Assembly (NCBI GenBank): GCA_016841625.1
Contig: JAENYU010000024.1
Span: forward strand, 1-38,569
Direction of reading: 5' to 3'
DNA length: 38,569 nt
From: Methanobacteriota archaeon
GTDB taxonomy: Archaea; Halobacteriota; Methanosarcinia; Methanosarcinales; Methanosarcinaceae
Shown in pieces: positions 9,774 to 19,931 of the stretch. Position 1 is the first letter of the stretch; each line of letters begins with the position of its first letter. The notes under the pieces were generated by a model that was given only the letters and a program-made list of their open reading frames with translations, was not told where the DNA came from and did not search any database. The translations under genes were made by a program, and so were the position numbers.

Positions 9774-10376
9774 ATGGTTCAATTGAAAAAAATTAGCCAA
9801 AGTAAAAAAGAACACTTGACAAGCTGGAAACGACTCATGAAAACCGAGAAACTATCAAGAAATTTGAACACAGCTTGAAAATGGATAGACAGAAAACAGC
9901 TACTGTAACTAATTATTTAGAATTTGATTATTTCATCGCGCAAACGATCCAGAAGGATTTCTCAGAAATTGGAGAAGATGATATTTACGACCTCCATGAT
10001 GCTCTGGAGAGTCATGTGGTCGGGGGCAAAGAGAAAAACATGCGCCCTAAGGCGATATTCTGATCCCAAATATAGTTTCATAGGGAAACTTAAAGAAAAT
10101 AATCCTAAAGGCTATTGCAGATATCGGATTCGTAAACGTGGAGTTGAGCTCTATCTTGAATTGAAGCATCGAATAGATCTTGGATTTGATCTGAATCGGC
10201 GCAATAGAGTTCCAAAACGCCTTAATTCATATCTTGGTATTACAAAACAGGGTTCTTTGGAGCTTGGAGTAACAGAGGCAGATCTTGGCTCTCCAGAGAT
10301 CGATTTTGATTTAGTTGAAGTTGATAGCCAAATAGCCGAAGAGTGCTCTAGTTGGGCTTTTGATAACGCTAAATAA
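9774..10376 (+). pseudogene. Frameshifted remnant of a tyrosine recombinase/integrase-like gene
   Basis: Three frames must be joined. ATG at 9774 starts MVQLKKISQSKK. A shift in the A-run near 9808 leads to a frame containing NRETIKKFEHSLKMDRQKTA and TVTNYLEFDYF, typical of the SAM-like core-binding domain of archaeal integrases. A second shift near 10045-10060 leads to a frame with GYCRYRIRKRGVELYLELKH and LGFDLNRRNRVPKRLNSYLG, ending at 10376. No R-H-R-Y catalytic domain is visible between them, so that part is probably deleted. The N-terminal assignment is from sequence feel alone. The C-terminal part is a charged, wHTH-like tail that I do not recognise with certainty. Confidence 0.5.
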
Positions 10377-10528
10377 ACATATTGATTTTAACTTTCATAG
10401 GGCAGCAGTTCCGTGGAGAAGATGGTTATATCTTTATCATGGGCGCCTGGAAGCCACTACTACCCTTTTTATAATTCGGCGCGGCTTGCTCGCCTACGTC
10501 GTGTGAAGGGGTTTTTGGGTTTTTGTAG
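10377..10528. other. Spacer with GC-rich patch between two pseudogenes
   Basis: This is about 150 bp with no gene. A GC-rich patch (near 10478-10500) stands out from AT-rich flanks, and G/T-rich sequence follows. Confidence 0.3.
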
Positions 10529-10672
10529 GAAATCAGTTTCAATATTTCTTATTCTGGGTGGAAAGAGATGGGATTCTCCAAAGGTACTCTCCATTACATG
10601 AAGAAAAACGCTGAAGCTGAGAAATCGTTTACGATGAATGCTCATGTTAGGGAAAGGTTGGAGACGTGGTAA
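10529..10672 (+). pseudogene. Probable 3' remnant of cas1
   Basis: A 47-codon frame without a start codon of its own reads EISFNISYSGWKEMGFSKG and continues TLHYMKKNAEAEKSFTMNAH, then VRERLETW and TAA. To my recognition this matches the extreme C-terminus of archaeal Cas1 (SY-W-K-GFSKGTLHYLKKNA). An in-frame TAG sits directly upstream, and no other part of Cas1, no cas2 and no repeat array is nearby. It is therefore a scrap left by deletion or by transfer. The family assignment is from memory of motif style and needs a search. Confidence 0.45.
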
Positions 10673-10687
10673 TGAGTTTTATGATAA

Positions 10688-11422
10688 TCACCCGATTATG
10701 TCTTGAATCTTTTTTACTGTTGCTTTCCGAGAGCTTGAAAGAAATTTAATATAGTCCTCTTTTTCGTCCCCATTCCAATAATCATCATATTCAAGGTCTA
10801 ATTCTTTTATTATCTTCTTTAATTTTGTTTTTGGGAGCTTATTTAACAAATCCTTTTTACTAATAGCGGATTCTGATTTAATAGACTTTTTTTTGGTCCG
10901 ATTTGTGTCACCAATAATTTCTTGAATCTTTTTTACTGTTGCTTTCCGAGAGCTTGAAAGAAATTTAATATAGTCCTCTTTTTCGTCCCCATTCCAATAA
11001 TCATCATATTCAAGGTCTAATTCTTTTATTATCTTCTTTAATTTTGTTTTTGGGAGCTTATTTAACAAATCATTTTTATTAATAGGAGTGTCAGTTTTAA
11101 GAGTACCTTTTTTTTCAGGAGTGTTTGTGGTCGAAGTACCTACATCTTTAAAATGTGTTTGTTTGTATCTCTCTATAGATATTGTTCCCATTCCCCGATT
11201 ACATGGACCACAAATTGGCCTTAAGTTGTTAATGTGGTCAGTTCCTCCTTTAGCAACTGCTTTATTGTGGCCAATTTGAAAATCAGTTATATGGATATAT
11301 CTTATCTGGCAACAGTAACATTTCCCTTCGGCTTTGTTTCCCATGTACTTTAGCCAAACAGCATCCCTTACATTTTTATCAATTTTTCTCCTTTTTGGCT
11401 TGTCATCTTCGAACCAACTCAT
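10688..11422 (-). CDS. HNH endonuclease with duplicated C-terminal module
   Basis: The N-terminal half holds an HNH nuclease: CYCC, then IGHNKAVAKGGTDHINNLRP (treble-clef histidine and asparagine), then CGPCNRG, so two Cys pairs bind a structural zinc. The C-terminal half carries two almost identical blocks of about 54 residues beginning DLLNKLPKTKLKKIIKELDL, 73 residues apart. They may be a SAP-like DNA-binding helical module, but that is a guess. I prefer the ATG at 11422 because AAGAGGG lies 6 nt upstream; an in-frame ATG at 11440 would add six residues but has no binding site. A miniature element has inserted 24 bp upstream of the chosen start. Related proteins are found in mobile elements and restriction loci. 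Confidence 0.75.
   Translation of the reverse strand: MSWFEDDKPKRRKIDKNVRDAVWLKYMGNKAEGKCYCCQIRYIHITDFQIGHNKAVAKGGTDHINNLRPICGPCNRGMGTISIERYKQTHFKDVGTSTTNTPEKKGTLKTDTPINKNDLLNKLPKTKLKKIIKELDLEYDDYWNGDEKEDYIKFLSSSRKATVKKIQEIIGDTNRTKKKSIKSESAISKKDLLNKLPKTKLKKIIKELDLEYDDYWNGDEKEDYIKFLSSSRKATVKKIQDIIG
10701..11081 (-). repeat. Intragenic direct duplication in HNH gene
   Basis: About 162 bp at 10701-10862 is repeated almost exactly at 10920-11081 (offset 219 bp, 73 codons). Near identity at DNA level points to a recent in-frame tandem duplication. Confidence 0.9.
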
Positions 11423-11445
11423 ATTATCCCTCTTATTCATTTAAT

Positions 11446-11577
11446 GGCTCTGTAGAAAACCTATCAAAATCAACATCAATCGGATAAAATGGATCGTTAA
11501 CCTCGATTTCGGAGAGTACATTTAAAATTACTGTATACTTAAAATCTCAACTAAATATCGAGGATTTCTACAGAACC
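11446..11577. mobile_element. Miniature inverted-repeat element (132 bp) with 8-bp target duplication
   Basis: The left end GGCTCTGTAGAAAACCT (11446-11462) and the right end AGGATTTCTACAGAACC (11561-11577) are inverted repeats matching at 15 of 17 positions. The flanks are identical 8-bp direct repeats CATTTAAT at 11438-11445 and 11578-11585, a clean target-site duplication. There is no room for a transposase, so it must be mobilised in trans by an insertion sequence with GGTTCTGTAGAAA-type ends; which family I cannot say. It lies between the HNH gene and its presumed promoter. Confidence 0.85.
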
Positions 11578-11585
11578 CATTTAAT

Positions 11586-11914
11586 GCAATTTGATATGGA
11601 GATCAGAATCCTAATATATTATAATAAGTTACCTTAATTAAATTTAATAAAAAAATTATTCATGAAATTATAAAATATTATTGAAATGTAACACAGCATA
11701 AAATATTATTGAAGAGTTTGGTTTTTTGACGTTACCTATATCCCCTATTTGCTATACGAGGGATGGGATTCGAACCCCCCTATCCTTCAATCAAGCTGCG
11801 ACATGTAAAGCCCTTTATGGTATCCTACAACTCACACAGAGCCTCTGTGAGGGATTAAAATGGGATTCTTGAGTATTTGGAGAAGGGAGGCTAGTCCCGA
11901 TCCGATCAGGATAT
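11586..11914. other. AT-rich intergenic region
   Basis: No gene is visible apart from the tRNA fragment. The palindrome CACAGAG-C-CTCTGTG lies near 11835-11849. Confidence 0.4.
11753..11785 (-). pseudogene. tRNA 3'-end fragment (T-arm and acceptor 3' strand)
   Basis: Reading leftwards, GGGTTCGAATCCCATCCC then TCGTA resembles the T-arm and acceptor 3' strand of the tRNA-Leu at 31075 (GGGTTCGACTCCCTTCCC, TCGCA). The T-stem is mismatched and no matching 5' acceptor strand or anticodon arm lies upstream, so it is not a functional tRNA. Integrases of archaeal elements recombine in tRNA 3' ends, so this could be an attachment-site scar. Confidence 0.45.
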
Positions 11915-12223
11915 TCAAAAAAGATCACCAGGGACTTTTCTTCTCCTTTTTCGAATAGTTTTCCAAGTATCTTTCCTTTGCTTCTTTTTGTTCTTTGCCC
12001 CTTCTTTCAGCCCATGGAATAAGCCGACTCTCTTCATTCTGGAAGGGGCTGGAGCGTGGAGAAGGCTTTTTCTCTTTCTTTGGAGGGTTAAGTGTTGTGA
12101 AGCTTTTTTGCGGCGCTCTTCGTCATAGGCAAGCTTTTCGGAGCATGAAAGCATGTGTGTTTTTACCCGCTTAAACGATTGATGGCAAAACTGACACTTT
12201 TCCATTTTATCTTTAGTTCCCAT
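11915..12223 (-). CDS. Small putative zinc-finger protein, possibly a remnant
   Basis: This 102-residue frame begins with a zinc-finger-like motif CQFCHQSFKRVKTHMLSC (C-x2-C ... H-x4-C). It continues as a very basic tail rich in lysine and arginine, consistent with nucleic-acid binding. An internal ATG at 12205 (MEKCQFC) is an equally good start. I do not recognise a named family. It sits in a decayed region next to degenerate reading frames, so it may be the surviving N-terminal piece of a longer gene. Confidence 0.4.
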   Translation of the reverse strand: MGTKDKMEKCQFCHQSFKRVKTHMLSCSEKLAYDEERRKKASQHLTLQRKRKSLLHAPAPSRMKRVGLFHGLKEGAKNKKKQRKDTWKTIRKRRRKVPGDLF

Positions 12224-12600
12224 GCAACATGTTTACTTTGTTATGTAAGACATACTTTTGCAAAAAATTTATATTAAACACGTCGTGAAGTTCTTGCATC
12301 CCAAAAGAATTCAGGTATTTAAGGTTAACTCCTAACCTTATTTCTTTGGATTGGCAAGCTTTAGAAAAGCTCGACAAACCCGTAATATCCAAAAACAACT
12401 GAGTAATATAAGTTGGAAAACAATTCATACTTTATTATAGAAACATGAAAAAGGAGCCTGTTGCCTCCCCGCAGATGGGCCTGAAATAGATGTTTCAAAG
12501 TTTTTTTACTGAATTTTGATTGTCCTTTTGCCTGAAGACCCATGATCCCCTGGCGAAAGATCAACTAGCTTTTTTGTTGAAGTTCACACCTGCTTTATTG
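12224..12600 (-). other. Degenerate leftward reading frames, no confident gene
   Basis: Two overlapping short leftward frames (about 67 codons ending at 12361 and 71 codons ending at 12213) look like pieces of one decayed gene; the first contains GLQAKGQSKFSKKTLKHLFQ. I recognise no family. TTGTTGAAGTT occurs twice near 12573-12607. Confidence 0.25.
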
Positions 12601-12732
12601 TTGAAGTTTGGACGACCTTTTTTGCGAAATTCGAGGAATGTCTCCGGAAAAATCCCGACATCCTATAAAAATTTATTATAAGTTAAATAAAATTTATAAC
12701 TTTAGATATAAATATAGGCAGATTTATGTACT

Positions 12733-12744
12733 CCATATAAAATA
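12733..12744 (+). promoter_or_regulatory. TATA box of the BrxD-helicase operon
   Basis: CCATATAAAATA lies 33-44 bp before the ATG at 12777 in otherwise AT-rich DNA, the expected archaeal spacing. GAGGG at 12767-12771 is the ribosome binding site. A second TATA-like run (GATATAAATATAGG) lies near 12705-12719. Confidence 0.55.
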
Positions 12745-12776
12745 CTTTGCTACGATAGCAGGACGCGAGGGTTTGA

Positions 12777-13619
12777 ATGGAAGATATAATCAAACAACTC
12801 GGGAGCCAGGCCACATTAGCAAAAAACATGAGGCTGGCCCTTAGAAAAATCGGCAAAGAGGAAGAGAATCCTTCCAGACGTTTGAGCATCCTGAAAGATG
12901 AAGTGAAAAAAATGGACCGGTATGTGGAAAACTGCCTGTTCGACCCAGTTTTTAAGGGCAGGATAAATTCGGAACTTGGAGCGTACAGGGCTGAGATTTC
13001 AAGTCTTGAAGCCCTCGTAAAGGCGGATTTCGGAAGAAAACTGGCTGAAAACCTGAAAGACCACGGTTTTTCCCTGGAAGGTCATTACCCCCGGCTCAAG
13101 ACTTCGTTATATACATTTGTGGTAAAACTGGATGCAAATAAGGTAGATATCTATTACGGGCCCGAATTCGAGAGGATGGACACGGTTAAAGCCAGCCCGG
13201 ACCTTACTGCGGCAAAGCTGCTGGAATGGAACGAAACCATAACCGGCAGGGAATTCGATGACGACGAGTTCCTGAACAACCTGCTGGAAGCCTACAGGAT
13301 CTGCCTGCTCCGGGAGAATAAGAATTTTGATGAGGAAATCCCGGTTTCCGAGATTATTTCTGCCTACTCTTTTGTCATTCAGGATCAAAAGTTCAGGGAG
13401 AACCCCCTGAAAAAATACTACGGGGAATACACCCGGATCATGTTCAGCTATGACCTCTCACGTTTGAAGAAGCGGAAAACGGGGGATTTCGAAATCAGGC
13501 TCATAACGGCAAGGAGAGCGGAAACAAAGCGAAAATCAACCTTCCTCTGGATCCCTCCGCGCTCCGGAAAAGGGCTTGGGGAGTCCATATCCCAGATAAA
13601 GTTCAGAGAAGTGAAGTGA
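12777..13619 (+). CDS. Unrecognised 280-aa first gene of BrxD-helicase operon
   Basis: I do not recognise this family. The first 100 residues are strongly helical and charged (LRKIGKEEENPSRRLSILKD, then KKMDRYVENC), possibly coiled-coil. A mixed alpha/beta centre follows (SLYTFVVKLDANKVDIYYGP near 110-130), then a basic C-terminus (LKKRKTGDFEIRLITARRAE). There is no signal peptide, membrane segment or nucleotide-binding motif. The ATG has GAGGG 5 nt upstream and a TATA box at about -40, so this gene opens the operon. The next gene starts 24 bp after its stop. Position suggests a dedicated partner of the two ATPases and the helicase-like protein, perhaps the specificity or adaptor subunit; that is inference only. 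Confidence 0.8.
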   Translation: MEDIIKQLGSQATLAKNMRLALRKIGKEEENPSRRLSILKDEVKKMDRYVENCLFDPVFKGRINSELGAYRAEISSLEALVKADFGRKLAENLKDHGFSLEGHYPRLKTSLYTFVVKLDANKVDIYYGPEFERMDTVKASPDLTAAKLLEWNETITGREFDDDEFLNNLLEAYRICLLRENKNFDEEIPVSEIISAYSFVIQDQKFRENPLKKYYGEYTRIMFSYDLSRLKKRKTGDFEIRLITARRAETKRKSTFLWIPPRSGKGLGESISQIKFREVK

Positions 13620-13643
13620 AATTATACTAATGGGAGAGGAAAA

Positions 13644-14888
13644 ATGTCTGGTGAAACCGAATTTGAAAATCTCGACAAAACCCTGGCAAAGCGGATAATC
13701 AACGAGGTGGGGGGGACCGGACAGCCTCCCCTGTACGGATACCAATTTTTCACGGCTGGCCTGGACAGGTACATGGAAACGATCGAAGCCGAGTACCTGA
13801 AAGACTACATAAAATACGGGGGTAGCTCCTTCAAGATGGTCGTGGGTGCCTACGGAGGGGGAAAGACTCATTTTCTATACAATGTACTCGGGAGGGCCTG
13901 GGAACACAATTACATTACTTCCTACATCGAGCTGAGTGCCAATTCCGTTCCCTTCCACAAGCTGGAAGAGGTGTACAGGGCCATTGTTTCCAACCTGATC
14001 TTTCCCCAGGAAGCAGCCGCCCTTTTGAACGATCCCGAAAAAGGAATAGAGGCGGTTTTGAGGAAGTGGTACAGGGAAACTATTGAGACTCTGCCCCTGG
14101 TCCCCCCCTACCGTCCGGGAGAAGAGGTGGAGAAGTACCTCAAGGAACTGGGCTCCTTTGAAAGCACCAGCTTCCAGAACGCGGTAAAAAAAGCTTTTAC
14201 GGCCCTTTACCAGGGCGACGAAGAACTTTTCGACCTCATCGTGCAGTGGCTGAAAGGGGAGAACCCCTCCTCAAAACTGTTAACCGATCTCCACATATAT
14301 GAGAAAATTGATCGGTCGACAGCCTTCAAAATGCTCCGCTGTCTTGTCCAGTTTCTTTTGAAAACCGGGTTTTCGGGGCTTATAGTCCTGCTGGACGAAG
14401 CGGAACAGACCCCCAGCATGAGCACAAGGGAACGCAGCACCCTCCTCCAGAACCTCAGGGAACTGGTGGACGCCTGCAGCCGGGGTGCCCTGAAAGGGAC
14501 CATGGTTTTCTATGCCGTACCTGACGAGAGTTTCCTGGAAGGCAGGACAAATGTCTACGAAGCCCTCAACCAGCGCCTCTCGACCACCTTTGAAGGAGAG
14601 ATCAACCCTACAGGGGTCAAGATCGACCTTGAAAACCTCTCAAAGGACCCCGTGGAACTCCTGGTAGAAATCGGGGCAAAACTTGCCAGGATCTATGAAA
14701 TCGCCCACGAAATGAAATTCGACGAGGCAGAACTGGAAGCCACGATCAGGGAAGTTGCCGAAAAAGCCGACCAGGAAAGCTACGGGGAAATTGCATACAA
14801 CCGTCTCTTTGTCCAGCTGATCGTCCCTTCTTTCCACGCCCTGAAGGCGAACATCGTTGAAAGTGCAAAGGAAGCGGAAAAAACCTGA
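13644..14888 (+). CDS. BrxD-like (DUF2791) P-loop ATPase
   Basis: This 414-residue protein matches the BREX-system ATP-binding family. Walker A is GAYGGGKT at 68-75 and is followed by THFLYN. ANSVPFHKLEEVYRAIVSNL at 99-118 is the family-specific block after the P-loop. Walker B is GLIVLLDEAE at 245-254, and EALNQRLSTTF at 306-316 offers a possible arginine finger or sensor 2 region. In BREX type 2, BrxD is encoded next to a BrxHI Lhr-like helicase, as here, but no PglX, PglZ or BrxC gene is present. GGGAGAGG lies just before the ATG. It is cytosolic and probably oligomeric. Intact motifs predict ATP hydrolysis. Confidence 0.85.
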   Translation: MSGETEFENLDKTLAKRIINEVGGTGQPPLYGYQFFTAGLDRYMETIEAEYLKDYIKYGGSSFKMVVGAYGGGKTHFLYNVLGRAWEHNYITSYIELSANSVPFHKLEEVYRAIVSNLIFPQEAAALLNDPEKGIEAVLRKWYRETIETLPLVPPYRPGEEVEKYLKELGSFESTSFQNAVKKAFTALYQGDEELFDLIVQWLKGENPSSKLLTDLHIYEKIDRSTAFKMLRCLVQFLLKTGFSGLIVLLDEAEQTPSMSTRERSTLLQNLRELVDACSRGALKGTMVFYAVPDESFLEGRTNVYEALNQRLSTTFEGEINPTGVKIDLENLSKDPVELLVEIGAKLARIYEIAHEMKFDEAELEATIREVAEKADQESYGEIAYNRLFVQLIVPSFHALKANIVESAKEAEKT

Positions 14889-15015
14889 CAAAACTTAAGC
14901 ATTAAAAAAATTTTAACGCATTTAACTCTTCAAATCTTTAATTTTTATTTAAATTATTAATTTTTCAAGATTGATTTCAAGATTGATTTTCAAATTACTC
15001 CCTCTGGGTGGTGCC

Positions 15016-18000
15016 ATGGCCGGAAAAAATTTTTTAGGACTTAGACTCCCTGACTTTGGGAAATTCACTGAAATTTTGAGTAAATTGAGCCGCTGGATTT
15101 TTGACGGCTCTTCGAAAACAGAAGCCGAACGGAAAACAAAAGACAGTGGGAAAGCAAAGGAAAGGCTGGAAAGCAGCAAGCCCCCTGAAAAAGCAATTGA
15201 AACAGTTGAGGTTCTGCCTTTACTCCTGCCTGAGGAAACAAGCCTTCTGGCCTCTGAAGGCAGCAGGGTGGAAAAAAGAAGCCCTCTTCCACGAGAGTCC
15301 CTTGACCTTAAAACCCTTTCCTCAATCAGTCTTCCGGATTCAATAGAAACCCCTAATTCGGAAAAAACCCCCGAGCTGGTAAAAACAGCTGATCTGGCAA
15401 AAGCAGCTGATCTGGCAAAAGCAGCTGATCTGGCAAAAGTGGCTGATCTGGCAAAAGCGGCTGATCTGGCAAAAGCGGCTGATCTGGCAAAAGTAGCTGA
15501 TCTGGCAAAAGCAGCTGATTTTACGAAAATCCCTGACTCAAAGGAAACAACAGAAGCAGCACAAATCACTACTGTGCCCGGAATCTCTGATCTGCTGAAA
15601 TTCTCAAGTCAACTGGAAAATCCCGAACCAGAAAGAATAAAGGAGCCTGTCGAGGAAAAAACCGTATTGGAGGTTCCTGCTCCGGTTGAAAGCCCGACTC
15701 CCCTAAAAATGGAGCCGATAGAAATTTCGGATATTGTGAAGATCCCTGAACTCCCGGAAGTAACACATACCGGAGAACTGATAAGTCCGCTGGAAATCCA
15801 GGGTAATTCGACAAGCTCAAACTCTGGAAAAACAGCTTATTTAACGGACTCACAAAGAACCGACTTACCAAAGCCATCACCTCTTGATGAAATTCTGAAT
15901 TTGCTGAAAACCCCTGAGCCTTTAGAGGATAAAAGGGAAGCTGAAGGTCAATCCCCGAAAGTTTCCTGCTCAGAAGAAGTATCAGACCCTTCGCAAAAGA
16001 CGGAACCTGTAGCAACTTCAGCTCCTGCGGAAACTTCGGAAGCGGGTAAAAATAAGGATTCGACAGGCAGCTCTGATTTGCTGGCTACCATAAATTCGAT
16101 TACTTCGACTGAAAAGCAGAAATACGAAAAAATTGATGAAACAGAAGAAGAAAAAGGCCACGTACCTGCCGAAATGACTCCGGGGCCAGACCTCGAACCT
16201 TTAGCACCTGAACCAGTGGAATCTGAATCTGCATTCTCTGAACCTGTTGTGTCTGAACCAGTGGAATCCGAATCTGCATTCTCTGAACCTGGTGTGCCTG
16301 AACCAGTAGAATCTGAATCTACAGCATCTGAGCCTGCTGTTCCTGCGACTCCTGTGGCTCCTGCTGAGATAAGTGCTGAAACACTCCTAAAATCAGTTGC
16401 TGAAATTACCGGAGAAGTGAACGAACTTCCAGAACTCGAAGCTCAAGAAATTGAAGCACCAGAAATTGAAGCTCAAGAAATTGAAGCTCTGGAAATCGAA
16501 GCTCCAGAAATTGAGGCTCCAGAAATTGAATCTGCAGAACTTGAGGCTCCGGAACTTGAAGTTCCAGAAATTGAAGCACCAGAAATTGAAGCTCAAGAAA
16601 TTGAAGCTCAAGAAATTGAAGCTCAAGAAATTGAAGCTCCAGAAATCGAAGCTCCAGAAATTGAAGCTCCAATATTTGAATCTCCAGTAATTGAGGCTCC
16701 GGAAATTGAAGCACCAGAAATTGAGACTCCGGAAATTGAATCTGCAGAACCTGAGGCTCTGGAACTTGAGACTCCGGAAATTGAATCTGCAGAACTTGAG
16801 GCTCCGGAAATTGAAGTTCCAGAACTTGAAGCACCAGAAATCGAAGCTCAAGAACTCGAAGTTCCGGAAATTGAAGCACCAGAAATTGAGGTTCCAGAAC
16901 TCGAACAAAATGCTGGCGAAGCTAAAGCAGAAGTTCCGGGTCCAGGAAATGGAAACGTTCCAGAGGATATCGCACCGAGAATTGCAGCCCGCAAGATAAT
17001 TGAGGCGCTCAGGCTTGGAGGTGTGCCTCCTTCCTGCATTGAACAGTATTCCGTGGGCAGGGAGAAAGAGTTCCTTGAAGCCTGTAGCTGGCTCGATTCA
17101 GAAAGAGGGGCACTGCAGGTCATAGGGGAATACGGGAGCGGAAAGACTCATTTCCTTGAGATGCTCTCGGAAACGGCGCTCAGGAAAAACTGGGGGGTTG
17201 CAAGGATCGAAATCGATGCCCAGGAGACTCCGTTCCACAAGCCTCACCAGCTGTATGAAAGCTTTGTGAACAATTTCTGTTTCAGGGAGAACGGGAATTT
17301 GATGGATTTCAGGGCATTCCTGACCCGCCTGAACGAAAGCACAGACCCTGAAGCAGAAAAGCTCCGGAGCCATCCCTACCTTGGCAAAATGCAAGAGGCC
17401 TGGCAGGAAGGGAAGAATAGGGAATGGCTATGCGAATGGATCGAAGGCAGGAGGGAAGGGCCTGCAGGTTTCCCGCTCCTCCAGAAGCACCAGACTGCGG
17501 CAAACATTTACGCCAACCTGCTCAGCGGCTTAGGCTGGGCTGCAAAGCACGTCCTGGGGCTGGAAGGAGTCTTCATCCTTTTCGACGAAGCCGAGACGGT
17601 TGACCCTTACTGGTATACGGATTACCAGTTTGACAAGGCCCTTAACACCCTCAGGGGTCTTGTCCTGCTGAGCAATTCCGACGAGTCCCTGATAGACGAT
17701 ACCCCGGACGCTGACAACCTGGGGAAGAAAAGCGGTCTGATCTACAGCAAAATGACGCGGGAGCCTGTCCCCTACCTCTGGGAGAGGGAATCTGACCTGA
17801 AACTCATCTTTTCATTCGTTCCCGAAATGCTTGAATCCATGGAAATGTTTTCAAAAATATCCTCCCTCTTTGGCTCCATGGACCGGATAGAACTCAAAAC
17901 CCTGGACGAAACGTCCCTGCAAACCCTGCTAGGGAACATAGAAAAAATCTACTCCGAAGCCTACGGTTATTCGGCTGAAAAAAGCCTTTACTCCTATCTC

Positions 18001-18099
18001 CCGCTTGACAGGCCCCGGAACTTTGTCAAGGCTGCGGTGGAAGGGCTGGACCTCATGCGCTACCGCCCGGACAGCGGTTCCGATGGGATATTCAAATGA
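15016..18099 (+). CDS. Second BrxD-like ATPase with long repetitive N-terminal extension
   Basis: This protein has about 1,027 residues, more than twice the usual family length. Residues 653-1027 form a DUF2791-type ATPase: Walker A GEYGSGKT at 704-711, DAQETPFHKPHQLYESFVNN soon after (equivalent to the PFHK block of the preceding gene), and Walker B GVFILFDEAE at 851-860. The N-terminal 650 residues are low complexity: ADLAKA hexapeptide repeats near 125-172, Pro/Glu/Ser-rich stretches, and about 32 acidic pentapeptides EIEAP/EIEAQ near 472-632. I chose the ATG at 15016 because GGGTGGTG precedes it; an in-frame TTG at 14971 lacks a binding site. The paralogous ATPase ends 127 bp upstream. 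The extension is probably a flexible acidic tether; the domain itself looks active. Confidence 0.8.
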   Translation: MAGKNFLGLRLPDFGKFTEILSKLSRWIFDGSSKTEAERKTKDSGKAKERLESSKPPEKAIETVEVLPLLLPEETSLLASEGSRVEKRSPLPRESLDLKTLSSISLPDSIETPNSEKTPELVKTADLAKAADLAKAADLAKVADLAKAADLAKAADLAKVADLAKAADFTKIPDSKETTEAAQITTVPGISDLLKFSSQLENPEPERIKEPVEEKTVLEVPAPVESPTPLKMEPIEISDIVKIPELPEVTHTGELISPLEIQGNSTSSNSGKTAYLTDSQRTDLPKPSPLDEILNLLKTPEPLEDKREAEGQSPKVSCSEEVSDPSQKTEPVATSAPAETSEAGKNKDSTGSSDLLATINSITSTEKQKYEKIDETEEEKGHVPAEMTPGPDLEPLAPEPVESESAFSEPVVSEPVESESAFSEPGVPEPVESESTASEPAVPATPVAPAEISAETLLKSVAEITGEVNELPELEAQEIEAPEIEAQEIEALEIEAPEIEAPEIESAELEAPELEVPEIEAPEIEAQEIEAQEIEAQEIEAPEIEAPEIEAPIFESPVIEAPEIEAPEIETPEIESAEPEALELETPEIESAELEAPEIEVPELEAPEIEAQELEVPEIEAPEIEVPELEQNAGEAKAEVPGPGNGNVPEDIAPRIAARKIIEALRLGGVPPSCIEQYSVGREKEFLEACSWLDSERGALQVIGEYGSGKTHFLEMLSETALRKNWGVARIEIDAQETPFHKPHQLYESFVNNFCFRENGNLMDFRAFLTRLNESTDPEAEKLRSHPYLGKMQEAWQEGKNREWLCEWIEGRREGPAGFPLLQKHQTAANIYANLLSGLGWAAKHVLGLEGVFILFDEAETVDPYWYTDYQFDKALNTLRGLVLLSNSDESLIDDTPDADNLGKKSGLIYSKMTREPVPYLWERESDLKLIFSFVPEMLESMEMFSKISSLFGSMDRIELKTLDETSLQTLLGNIEKIYSEAYGYSAEKSLYSYLPLDRPRNFVKAAVEGLDLMRYRPDSGSDGIFK
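15388..15531 (+). repeat. 18-bp repeats encoding ADLAKA hexapeptides
   Basis: Seven near-identical 18-bp copies of GCTGATCTGGCAAAAGCA plus one diverged copy encode A-D-L-A-K-A/V. The charge pattern with period six residues would favour an amphipathic helix. Confidence 0.9.
16429..16911 (+). repeat. 15-bp repeats encoding acidic pentapeptides
   Basis: About 32 units of 15 bp encode E-(I/L)-E-(A/V/S)-(P/Q). Units vary at silent and replacement sites, so the array is older than the 126-bp TPR repeats. The product is extremely acidic and proline-punctuated, probably an extended rod or DNA-mimic-like linker. Confidence 0.9.
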
Positions 18100-18236
18100 A
18101 GATAAAATGCAAAAGTCAAAGAGTAAAAAATTAGATAGAGAAAAGTAGACCAAAAAAGTAGACCAAAAAAGTAGGCCAGAAAAGCTCAGATGAAAAATTC
18201 AGATCGAAAAAAAGGCAAAAAAGAGCCCTATGAAAA
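18100..18236 (+). other. Spacer with short A-rich repeats
   Basis: This 137-bp spacer inside the operon contains AAAAAAGTAGACC-type direct repeats near 18143-18180. There is no terminator-like hairpin, so read-through into the helicase gene is likely. Confidence 0.35.
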
Positions 18237-19931
18237 ATGCCGGAAGCCCTGAGTATGAGTGAGAATGAAGGAAATGAGCGAGCTGAAAACGAAGGAAGAG
18301 TAAAAGCAGGAGAAGAAAACCAGGATATAAAGAGGCTCCTGAAAAGGACCTGGTACACCTTTTTCAGCCGGGCCGGGCCCCTATCTCCTGCCCGGAAACT
18401 GGTTATCCGGACCGTACTCGAGGGAAAAAATGCGGTCATCGTGGCTCCGGAAACAGAGGGAATTTCCGAAGCTTTGCTTGCCCCGTTGTGCGAAACTGTC
18501 CTCAAAGAAAAGAGGAAAGGGCTGGCTGTGCTTTACCTCCCCCCTACCAGGGCGCGGGCAAATGAAATTTTTGACAGGCTCCGCGAGCAGCTTGCCAGGT
18601 CCAACCTGAGGGTATCTAAAAAAACAACGGGAAGAGCCAGTATAAACGCGGATAACCCCCCGGACTTTTTGGTAACAACCCCCGAAACCCTGGACTCCCT
18701 GCTTTGCAGGTATCCGGAGGGGCTGGAACGGGTACGGGCCGTAGTCCTTGATGAAATCCACAGTATCGACGGAGGATACCGGGGAGACCAGGTCCGTCTC
18801 CTTCTGGAACGTTTAAGGGAGATTGCAGGGAAGTTATCCGTCTATGCCCTCTCAGCTCCTGCCGGAAACGTAGTACAGGTCGGGGAAAGGTACATGGACG
18901 ATTTCCAGGTAATCCGAACGGAAGGAGAGAGAGAGATAAAGGAGACTTATGCAGCCTCGTTCGAGGAAATCTTTGAGATTGCCGGGAAGGAAAACATAAA
19001 AAAAATCCTTGTTTTTTGTGGCAGCAGGAAGAAAACCGAAGAAGTTGGAGTCCTGCTGAAAAAGTTCCGGAACCCTTCGACAGCAACCGCCCACCTGTCC
19101 ATCCTCCACGAGGGACTTTCAAGGTCCGAACGGGAAGAAGTGGAAAACTTCATCAAAAATTCCGAAAGAGCCGTTTGCGTTTCCTCACTTACCCCGGATT
19201 CCGGGATCGGTGTTGGGGACGTCGACGCCGTTGTCCTTGCCGAAATTCCCGGGAACCTTTCTTCATTTGCACAGGCCCTTGAATGCGCTGGGAAAACAAC
19301 AGGGGTCATGAGGGTCTTTTTTCTCTGCGACAGCAAATCAAAGCCCTTATTCGAACTTCTTCTGGACCATGCAAAAGAAAATTGCCCTGGAAACAGCCCT
19401 GGAAACAAAGTGTATGTCCCGGACCTTTCCGTAACAGTCCAGCAAATTTTTTCCGTCCTGTTCTCAGACCCCTGGGGCGTGGATGAAGACTACCTGTACA
19501 GGCTGTTCAACAATTTCTGTGCCTACGAAGACCTGAAAAGCATCATAGAAGAACTGCTGGATGCAGGGCTGATAACGTCCAAGAACCGGAAGATCTACGC
19601 CTCGGAGTTCATCATGAACCTCGGAGAAGAGGGAACACTCCATTCCAATATCCCTCCCGAAAGGACCGTGGAAGTCGTGAACTCCCGGACAAACAAAAAA
19701 ATAGGGGAAGCCCGGCTTCCTCCAGGCTGCATCAGAGCCCGCCAGAGCTTTTCTCTTGCCGGGAAGTCCTGGGAGGTCGTGAAGCTTGAAGAAGACAGTG
19801 TCCACGTTAAAAAATCGACAGTAAAGGGCGTATTTAATAGCTTAAAATGCGCAGCAGGGCTCGGAGCTTTTTTTGAGTATTTGCCCGAAAAAATCCAGGA
19901 AGCTGAAATTGAAAAAAGAAAGGAAGTTTGA
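18237..19931 (+). CDS. Lhr/BrxHI-like superfamily 2 helicase with degenerate ATPase motifs
   Basis: This 564-residue protein has two RecA-like lobes followed by a wHTH-like region (about 400-564). Recognisable motifs are Ia YLPPTRARANE 100-110, Ib TTPETLDSLL 147-156, II LDEIHS 171-176, III SAPAG 206-210, IV VFCGSR 259-264 and V TPDSGIGVGDVD 319-330. The Walker A position reads APETEGISEA (70-79): the expected GxGKT is missing, including the catalytic lysine. Motif VI reads QALECAGKTTG (346-356) instead of QRxGRAGR, so the arginine fingers are gone. ATP hydrolysis is therefore unlikely. It is the last gene of the operon and ends 10 bp before the convergent fasciclin gene. I infer a DNA-binding scaffold worked on by the two BrxD-like ATPases. 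Confidence 0.8.
   Translation: MPEALSMSENEGNERAENEGRVKAGEENQDIKRLLKRTWYTFFSRAGPLSPARKLVIRTVLEGKNAVIVAPETEGISEALLAPLCETVLKEKRKGLAVLYLPPTRARANEIFDRLREQLARSNLRVSKKTTGRASINADNPPDFLVTTPETLDSLLCRYPEGLERVRAVVLDEIHSIDGGYRGDQVRLLLERLREIAGKLSVYALSAPAGNVVQVGERYMDDFQVIRTEGEREIKETYAASFEEIFEIAGKENIKKILVFCGSRKKTEEVGVLLKKFRNPSTATAHLSILHEGLSRSEREEVENFIKNSERAVCVSSLTPDSGIGVGDVDAVVLAEIPGNLSSFAQALECAGKTTGVMRVFFLCDSKSKPLFELLLDHAKENCPGNSPGNKVYVPDLSVTVQQIFSVLFSDPWGVDEDYLYRLFNNFCAYEDLKSIIEELLDAGLITSKNRKIYASEFIMNLGEEGTLHSNIPPERTVEVVNSRTNKKIGEARLPPGCIRARQSFSLAGKSWEVVKLEEDSVHVKKSTVKGVFNSLKCAAGLGAFFEYLPEKIQEAEIEKRKEV

Follow-up and report, generated by a model that had tools for sequence, protein, structure and literature searches.

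A four-gene operon of two BrxD-like ATPases, a new protein family and a BrxHI/SngC-like helicase as a candidate defence module in archaea and on bacterial plasmids

Introduction

BrxD and BrxHI are described as a tight dyad in the available part of a 2026 BREX survey, in which BrxD is an AAA+ protein of the ORC/Cdc6 type that may load BrxHI (PMC12839542). Shango, a system of TerB, an ATPase and a helicase, confers modest protection against phages (PMC10250203), and its helicase SngC was placed with BrxHI, DruE and DpdJ in a potential clade of helicases that is defined by antiphage functions (PMC12278908).

Four genes, three of which encode proteins of these kinds, are located on contig JAENYU010000024.1 of a Methanosarcinaceae archaeon, of which a stretch of 38,569 nucleotides was analyzed (referred to as the window). 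They had been predicted from the sequence alone to form an independent machine for defence or DNA maintenance. This raises the question whether the operon belongs to BREX type 2 or to Shango or represents a module of its own, and which function such a module might have.

Gene content of the operon

An ORF check confirmed the four predicted same-strand genes, designated A to D, as consecutive ORFs at positions 12777-19931 with intergenic gaps of 24 nt (A-B), 82 nt (B-C) and 137 nt (C-D). The features are as follows:

12777..13619, + strand: gene A, 280 aa, new family; no match in Pfam, NCBIfam or PADLOC and no meaningful match to a solved structure
13644..14888, + strand: gene B, 414 aa, BrxD-like AAA+ (ORC/Cdc6-type) ATPase; PF10923 with 4e-50
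14971..18099, + strand: gene C, 1042 aa from TTG, second, diverged BrxD-like ATPase; PF10923 with 2.4e-17
15016..16950, + strand: acidic low-complexity arm of gene C, defined by composition and tandem repeats
16951..18099, + strand: ATPase domain of gene C with Walker A, PFHK and Walker B
18237..19931, + strand: gene D, 564 aa, BrxHI/SngC-like SF2 helicase, short form, predicted pseudohelicase

Promoter and terminator scans resulted in counts close to the shuffled mean. The flanks had been described as fasciclin and decayed DNA; fasciclin is indeed among the neighbours, but the left side holds more than decayed DNA, namely ileS and an HNH protein (10688-11440), which has two near-identical C-terminal repeats. 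Between ileS and gene A, which are 3.7 kb apart in the window genome (9111-12776) and about 0.7 kb apart in G001 (L014), there is also a small zinc-finger-like ORF (11915-12223).

The product of gene A, correctly described as unrecognised, has a helical N-terminal half and contains the conserved blocks GHYPxLK...YGPE, FSYDLxRL and TATRAxT...FLWIP. AF2 models of A and of the ATPase domain of C, calculated from few sequences comprising close homologues only, had pLDDT values of 49 and 44, which are too low, and were not used. SngA, the TerB subunit of Shango, was considered as a counterpart of A and rejected, as hhalign of A against an SngA alignment gave a probability of 0.1%. None of 13 members of the A family has a TerB match in Pfam and, judged by these searches, A is unrelated to the Shango subunit.

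The best PADLOC match of B is BrxD (1.6e-42), followed by SngB (2.7e-21), and the NCBIfam BrxD model scores it at 144 bits, with a cut-off of 350. The Walker A and PFHK blocks predicted for two of the genes are intact in both ATPases, and so is Walker B: B contains GAYGGGKTHF (13845-13874), PFHK (13947-13961) and LLDEAEQTPS (14388-14417), and C contains GEYGSGKTHF (17125-17154), PFHK (17227-17241) and LFDEAETVD (17578-17604). The PF10923 match on C covers residues 672-773.

For C, the ATG at 15016 is the more likely start codon than the TTG at 14971. About 650 acidic, repeat-rich, low-complexity residues (20% Glu, 11% Ala, 11% Pro) precede the ATPase part (about residues 670-1042), with tandem repeats at 15376-15519 (18 nt), 16207-16345 (45 nt) and 16428-16899 (15 nt, around 31 copies). 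This arm replaces a short N-terminal domain of the other lineages, which weakly resembles the Tudor domain of UvrD/PcrA (Pfam 0.0087 in one member, PDB E-value 0.77).

In the ATPase tree, C forms a clade of its own (99/97, with a long-branch warning that also applies to the grouping of archaeal with bacterial C), from which BrxD and SngB are each separate. B is placed outside the BrxD clade, the SngB clade contains neither B nor C, and archaeal and bacterial B were not recovered as sisters. Of the predicted duplication of ATPase subunits, the presence of two BrxD-like ATPases is therefore correct, but they are ancient paralogues and not the result of a recent duplication.

Distribution and co-occurrence

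The gene order A-B-C-D recurs in archaea across six or seven families of the Halobacteriota. Searched against 120 close genomes, A has relatives in 13, one of which is the window's own genome; its profile matches 15 of 393 Halobacteriota genomes. Within these 393 genomes, full-length A and C are inseparable according to their profiles, as each genome with one also has the other, and the exceptions consist of debris (C fragments in G247, A fragments in G328). In both G002 and G379, B is interrupted and spans two frames. No D was found within the available stretch of G106 and G085; some of the metagenome copies end at contig ends. At the C-D junction, homology ends at the identical point, the start codon of D, in G074, G106, G115 and G085 (L019:913-1934; also L020, L021 and L023). 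In G074, D resumes about 1 kb further on; the inserted sequence contains no long ORF, and Rfam gave no match in it or in the window.

Furthermore, complete sets were found on two bacterial plasmids, pDESTI.01 of Desulfomonile tiedjei (279, 430, 397 and 701 aa) and plasmid3 of the cyanobacterium Aulosira laxa NIES-50 (279, 420, 398 and 697 aa), the only carriers in the plasmid collection. The Desulfomonile set occupies positions 10215-15641 of NC_018026.1. A direct search with A returned no match in viral contigs, phages or plasmids; the bacterial A proteins, which are 38% identical to each other and which the archaeal A profile scores at 36 and 30 bits, were reached only via C. The module was likewise absent from the phage collection. 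A BrxD-like ATPase match was also seen on plasmids of Klebsiella (445) and Salmonella (136), and most of the matched plasmids are conjugative. Weak PF10923 matches elsewhere in the carrier genomes were checked and are no copies of the module.

The operon is thus no chance arrangement, since the same genes recur in the same order in other archaeal genomes and on two bacterial plasmids. A lack of co-occurrence, which had been named as evidence against a four-gene unit, was not observed among the carriers of full-length A and C.

Genomic neighbourhood

Outside the Methanosarcinaceae, the flanks of the operon contain type IIG restriction-modification (RM) genes (L044, L045), OLD-like and SbcC-like genes (L045), an HNH gene with an AAA ATPase (L046), a type I RM locus immediately next to the operon (L049), Druantia DruE (L050) and HEC-01A/B (L051). 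At L050 (323-8866), the Druantia-like DruE (1616 aa) and an unrecognised neighbour of 1225 aa lie directly upstream of the module.

The proposed scoring for defence-island enrichment was carried out with PADLOC at an E-value cut-off of 1e-25. Of the flank proteins, at least 11 of 85 were matched, compared to a single match among 56 proteins in control stretches taken from these genomes (Fisher p values of 0.017 for proteins, about 0.02 when rounded, and 0.014), and 7 of 12 loci were positive, one of them (L019) by inference. The flanks are thus richer in PADLOC proteins than the controls, which is moderate evidence, since the controls are short, arbitrary contigs and some of the 12 loci are related. 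Neighbourhood and homology together make a defence role of the module likely.

A scan of 22 carrier genomes revealed no PglZ (PF08665) near the archaeal copies, and 13 of these genomes lack any PglZ match. None of the window's flanking genes that were scanned or named encodes a methylase, and the methyltransferases near some other copies fit type I or type IIG RM better than PglX. The predicted absence of BREX core genes from the locus is therefore borne out. In the window's own genome, B and C are the sole PF10923 matches. Another contig of this genome (C28; L054:4028-17077) carries a possible BREX-type locus unlinked to the operon, which encodes a marginal PglZ (785 aa, Pfam) and, by eye, BrxL-like (682 aa), DUF262-like, 1133-aa and BrxC-like (1142 aa) proteins.

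Linked pglX and pglZ genes had been named as evidence against independence. They were encountered once, on the Aulosira plasmid, where the module directly follows a BREX-2-like cassette of BrxC/PglY, PglX, PglZ, BrxD and BrxHI. As this cassette has a BrxD and a BrxHI of its own, the locus contains two ATPase-helicase sets, of which A-B-C-D is the additional one. No BREX gene is present on the Desulfomonile plasmid. The conserved order and co-occurrence, together with the absence of PglZ near the archaeal copies and of BREX genes on this plasmid, speak for the independent unit that had been predicted.

Loss of helicase motifs in the Methanosarcinaceae

D matches DEAD, Helicase_C and, weakly, WH_Lhr in Pfam, and in PADLOC BrxHI (9.5e-49) followed by SngC (2.2e-37). 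The prediction of a gene with SF2/Lhr motifs holds insofar as SF2 blocks are present, but it overlooked that motifs I and VI are lost. In the window, motif I reads APETEGISEA (18444-18473; SATASGKTEA in relatives) and motif VI reads QALECAGKTTG (19272-19304); motif II (DEIH, 18750-18770) is retained and motif III is ALSAP (18846-18860). In the five Methanosarcinaceae D proteins, GKT of motif I is changed to GIS or GIP and QRIGRGSR of motif VI to QALECAGK or similar, and the DEAH box is also gone in three of the five. In the alignment, motifs I, II and VI are intact in every other lineage. D of the Methanosarcinaceae is therefore predicted from its sequence to be a pseudohelicase, and since the loss is common to their copies, it is older than the divergence of these.

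All four operon genes are under purifying selection. The dN/dS values are 0.03-0.19 for A, 0.07-0.14 for B, 0.06-0.23 for the ATPase part of C and 0.21-0.32 for D, the highest of the four (ileS: 0.06-0.12), and the reading frames have stayed open across genomes at dS values of up to about 1. D is thus under purifying selection despite the loss of its motifs.

Proposed function and alternative explanations

The reading that we favour, with somewhat more confidence than doubt, is that A-B-C-D is a stand-alone, horizontally spread module against mobile elements (antiviral), a sister of SngB-SngC in Shango and of BrxD-BrxHI in BREX type 2. We infer a defence role, a loader mechanism, DNA as the target and a role of A in target contact as follows. 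B and C, as ATPases of the ORC/Cdc6 type, would join into a mixed ring or loader. The contact to the target, which may be DNA or the replication or transcription machinery, would be made by A and, in most lineages, also by the Tudor-like N-terminus of C. The nucleotide-driven assembly would then load the SF2 translocase D onto invading DNA, which would be remodelled, stalled or unwound and thereby either not replicated or exposed to host nucleases or to those of a neighbouring defence system. No nuclease or toxin was found among the four core genes, which speaks against this reading.

In the Methanosarcinaceae, the motor-less D may be kept as a DNA-binding or docking subunit. As its ATPase motifs are lost, the ATP-driven step is proposed to be left to B and C there. 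Either the ATPases alone work in this clade or the module has been domesticated. The wider claim, that the operon represents an undescribed defence system of archaea and bacteria with two ORC/Cdc6-type ATPases, a new family and a helicase, whose motor-less form in the Methanosarcinaceae provides ATPase-driven immunity or is a domesticated successor, is put forward tentatively.

The strongest alternative, although on balance unlikely, is that the Methanosarcinaceae module is a former defence set domesticated for a vertically inherited role in the cell, e.g., chromosome maintenance or transcription control, with the helicase as a non-motor scaffold. The operon occupies a fixed site here, with ileS on one side (window, G001, G003 and Methanosarcina sp. 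KYL-1) and a fasciclin/DUF7544/GNAT cluster on the other (window, L014, L016 and L017). This housekeeping position counts against the favoured reading, as does the presence of the operon in each of the four genomes from the genus of the window, and both fit domestication as well. Domestication is also consistent with the purifying selection on all four genes, with the loss of motifs I and VI and the new acidic arm of C being confined to this clade, and with the fact that no defence system was recognised beside the Methanosarcinaceae copies. However, only 5 of 101 Methanosarcinaceae genomes carry the operon, the fifth being that of Methanosarcina sp. KYL-1, and in seven other Methanosarcina genomes ileS is located near DUF7544 without it, so that the operon is dispensable. 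In other lineages, moreover, the module lies among defence genes and has an intact helicase.

It is rather improbable that the operon is a divergent Shango, acting by the Shango mechanism with A in place of SngA (TerB) and a doubled ATPase gene. Both have the same core of ATPase and helicase and a leading non-ATPase gene, the SngB model matches B and the SngC model D, and Shango occurs in the same phylum. In a tree of 24 helicases, however, archaeal and bacterial D together with the helicase of a related locus (L094, see below) are split from BrxHI and SngC at 100/100, and SngC groups with BrxHI in a clade that excludes D. Profile comparison gives no similarity of A to SngA, and the constant ATPase family C is without a Shango counterpart.

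That the window copy is a decaying relic of an operon being lost, as its D motifs and the dN/dS of D might suggest and as the decayed remnants in G247 and G328 illustrate, is very doubtful in view of the open frames at dS of about 1, the dN/dS values of D and B and a motif loss that predates the divergence of the copies. Least credible, and already largely refuted, is the reading as a BREX type 2 accessory block that at times stands alone, for which the position on the Aulosira plasmid could be cited, as the cassette there owns BrxD and BrxHI, the archaeal copies and 13 of the 22 carriers lack a nearby or any PglZ, respectively, and the Desulfomonile plasmid is free of BREX genes.

If the favoured reading of a stand-alone defence module is correct, it would add a third, separate lineage, which works with neither BREX nor TerB components, to the little-understood class of BrxD/SngB-helicase pairs and provide a minimal set for asking what these pairs do. 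The natural loss of the motor predicted for one clade lends itself to testing whether the helicase motor is needed. Methanosarcina is genetically tractable, and an antiviral function in archaea could be tested directly there.

Comparison with known systems

The module is made of the same kinds of ATPase and helicase as BREX type 2 and Shango. From the trees, the unrelatedness of A and SngA, the absence of PglZ and the double set on the Aulosira plasmid, it follows that it is part of neither. A search of open-access journals and a minority of preprints found no publication on the four-gene set, and the set is not among the new BREX-related systems in the available part of the 2026 survey (PMC12839542). 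The expectation of an undescribed system thus stands for this gene set, but not for a stand-alone BrxD-helicase pair as such, which is already known from Shango.

Given the lack of PglZ beside the archaeal copies, the self-sufficient BREX-2 cassette of Aulosira and the split of the helicase clades, Shango and not BREX type 2 is the closest known system. Like the module, it is a stand-alone operon in which a BrxD-type ATPase is followed by a BrxHI-type SF2 helicase and which adjoins other defence genes. Shango examples in the present data are L095 and L101-L103, including archaeal operons of TerB, ATPase and helicase in G411 (C9, L095:7377-13070) and on a Halocatena salina plasmid (L101:5629-11490), the latter lying two genes from an annotated BREX-5 PglZ. 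The module differs in its first gene, in its separate helicase clade, in having C, a further ATPase family whose N-terminus is Tudor-like or acidic, and in its archaeal D, which is shorter and, in the Methanosarcinaceae, motif-dead.

A five-gene relative is located in G051 (C12, L094:8832-16493). It encodes a possible A homologue (296 aa), a BrxD-like ATPase, a NERD-BrxD fusion (646 aa), a BrxD-like ATPase of 472 aa that has an additional N-terminal domain, and a helicase (705 aa). Its helicase groups with D at 99/98, and the weak similarity of its first gene to A (hhalign E-value 5e-4, probability 33%) is suggestive of homology at most; among 294 genomes searched, only one contained this gene. 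In contrast to the module, L094 has three ATPases, one of which is fused to a NERD nuclease domain (PF08378, 6e-13), and a full-length helicase. The fusion is a hint that such a machine can be combined with DNA cleavage.

With BREX type 2, the module shares ATPases that match the BrxC/BrxD family, a helicase that matches BrxHI and the same order of adjacent ATPase and helicase genes. Membership in BREX type 2 was rejected, as PF10923 is limited to B and C, D lies outside the BrxHI clade and PglZ is absent near the archaeal copies. In comparison to that system, the module is without BrxC/PglY, PglX, PglZ and PglW and contains A and C as additional components.
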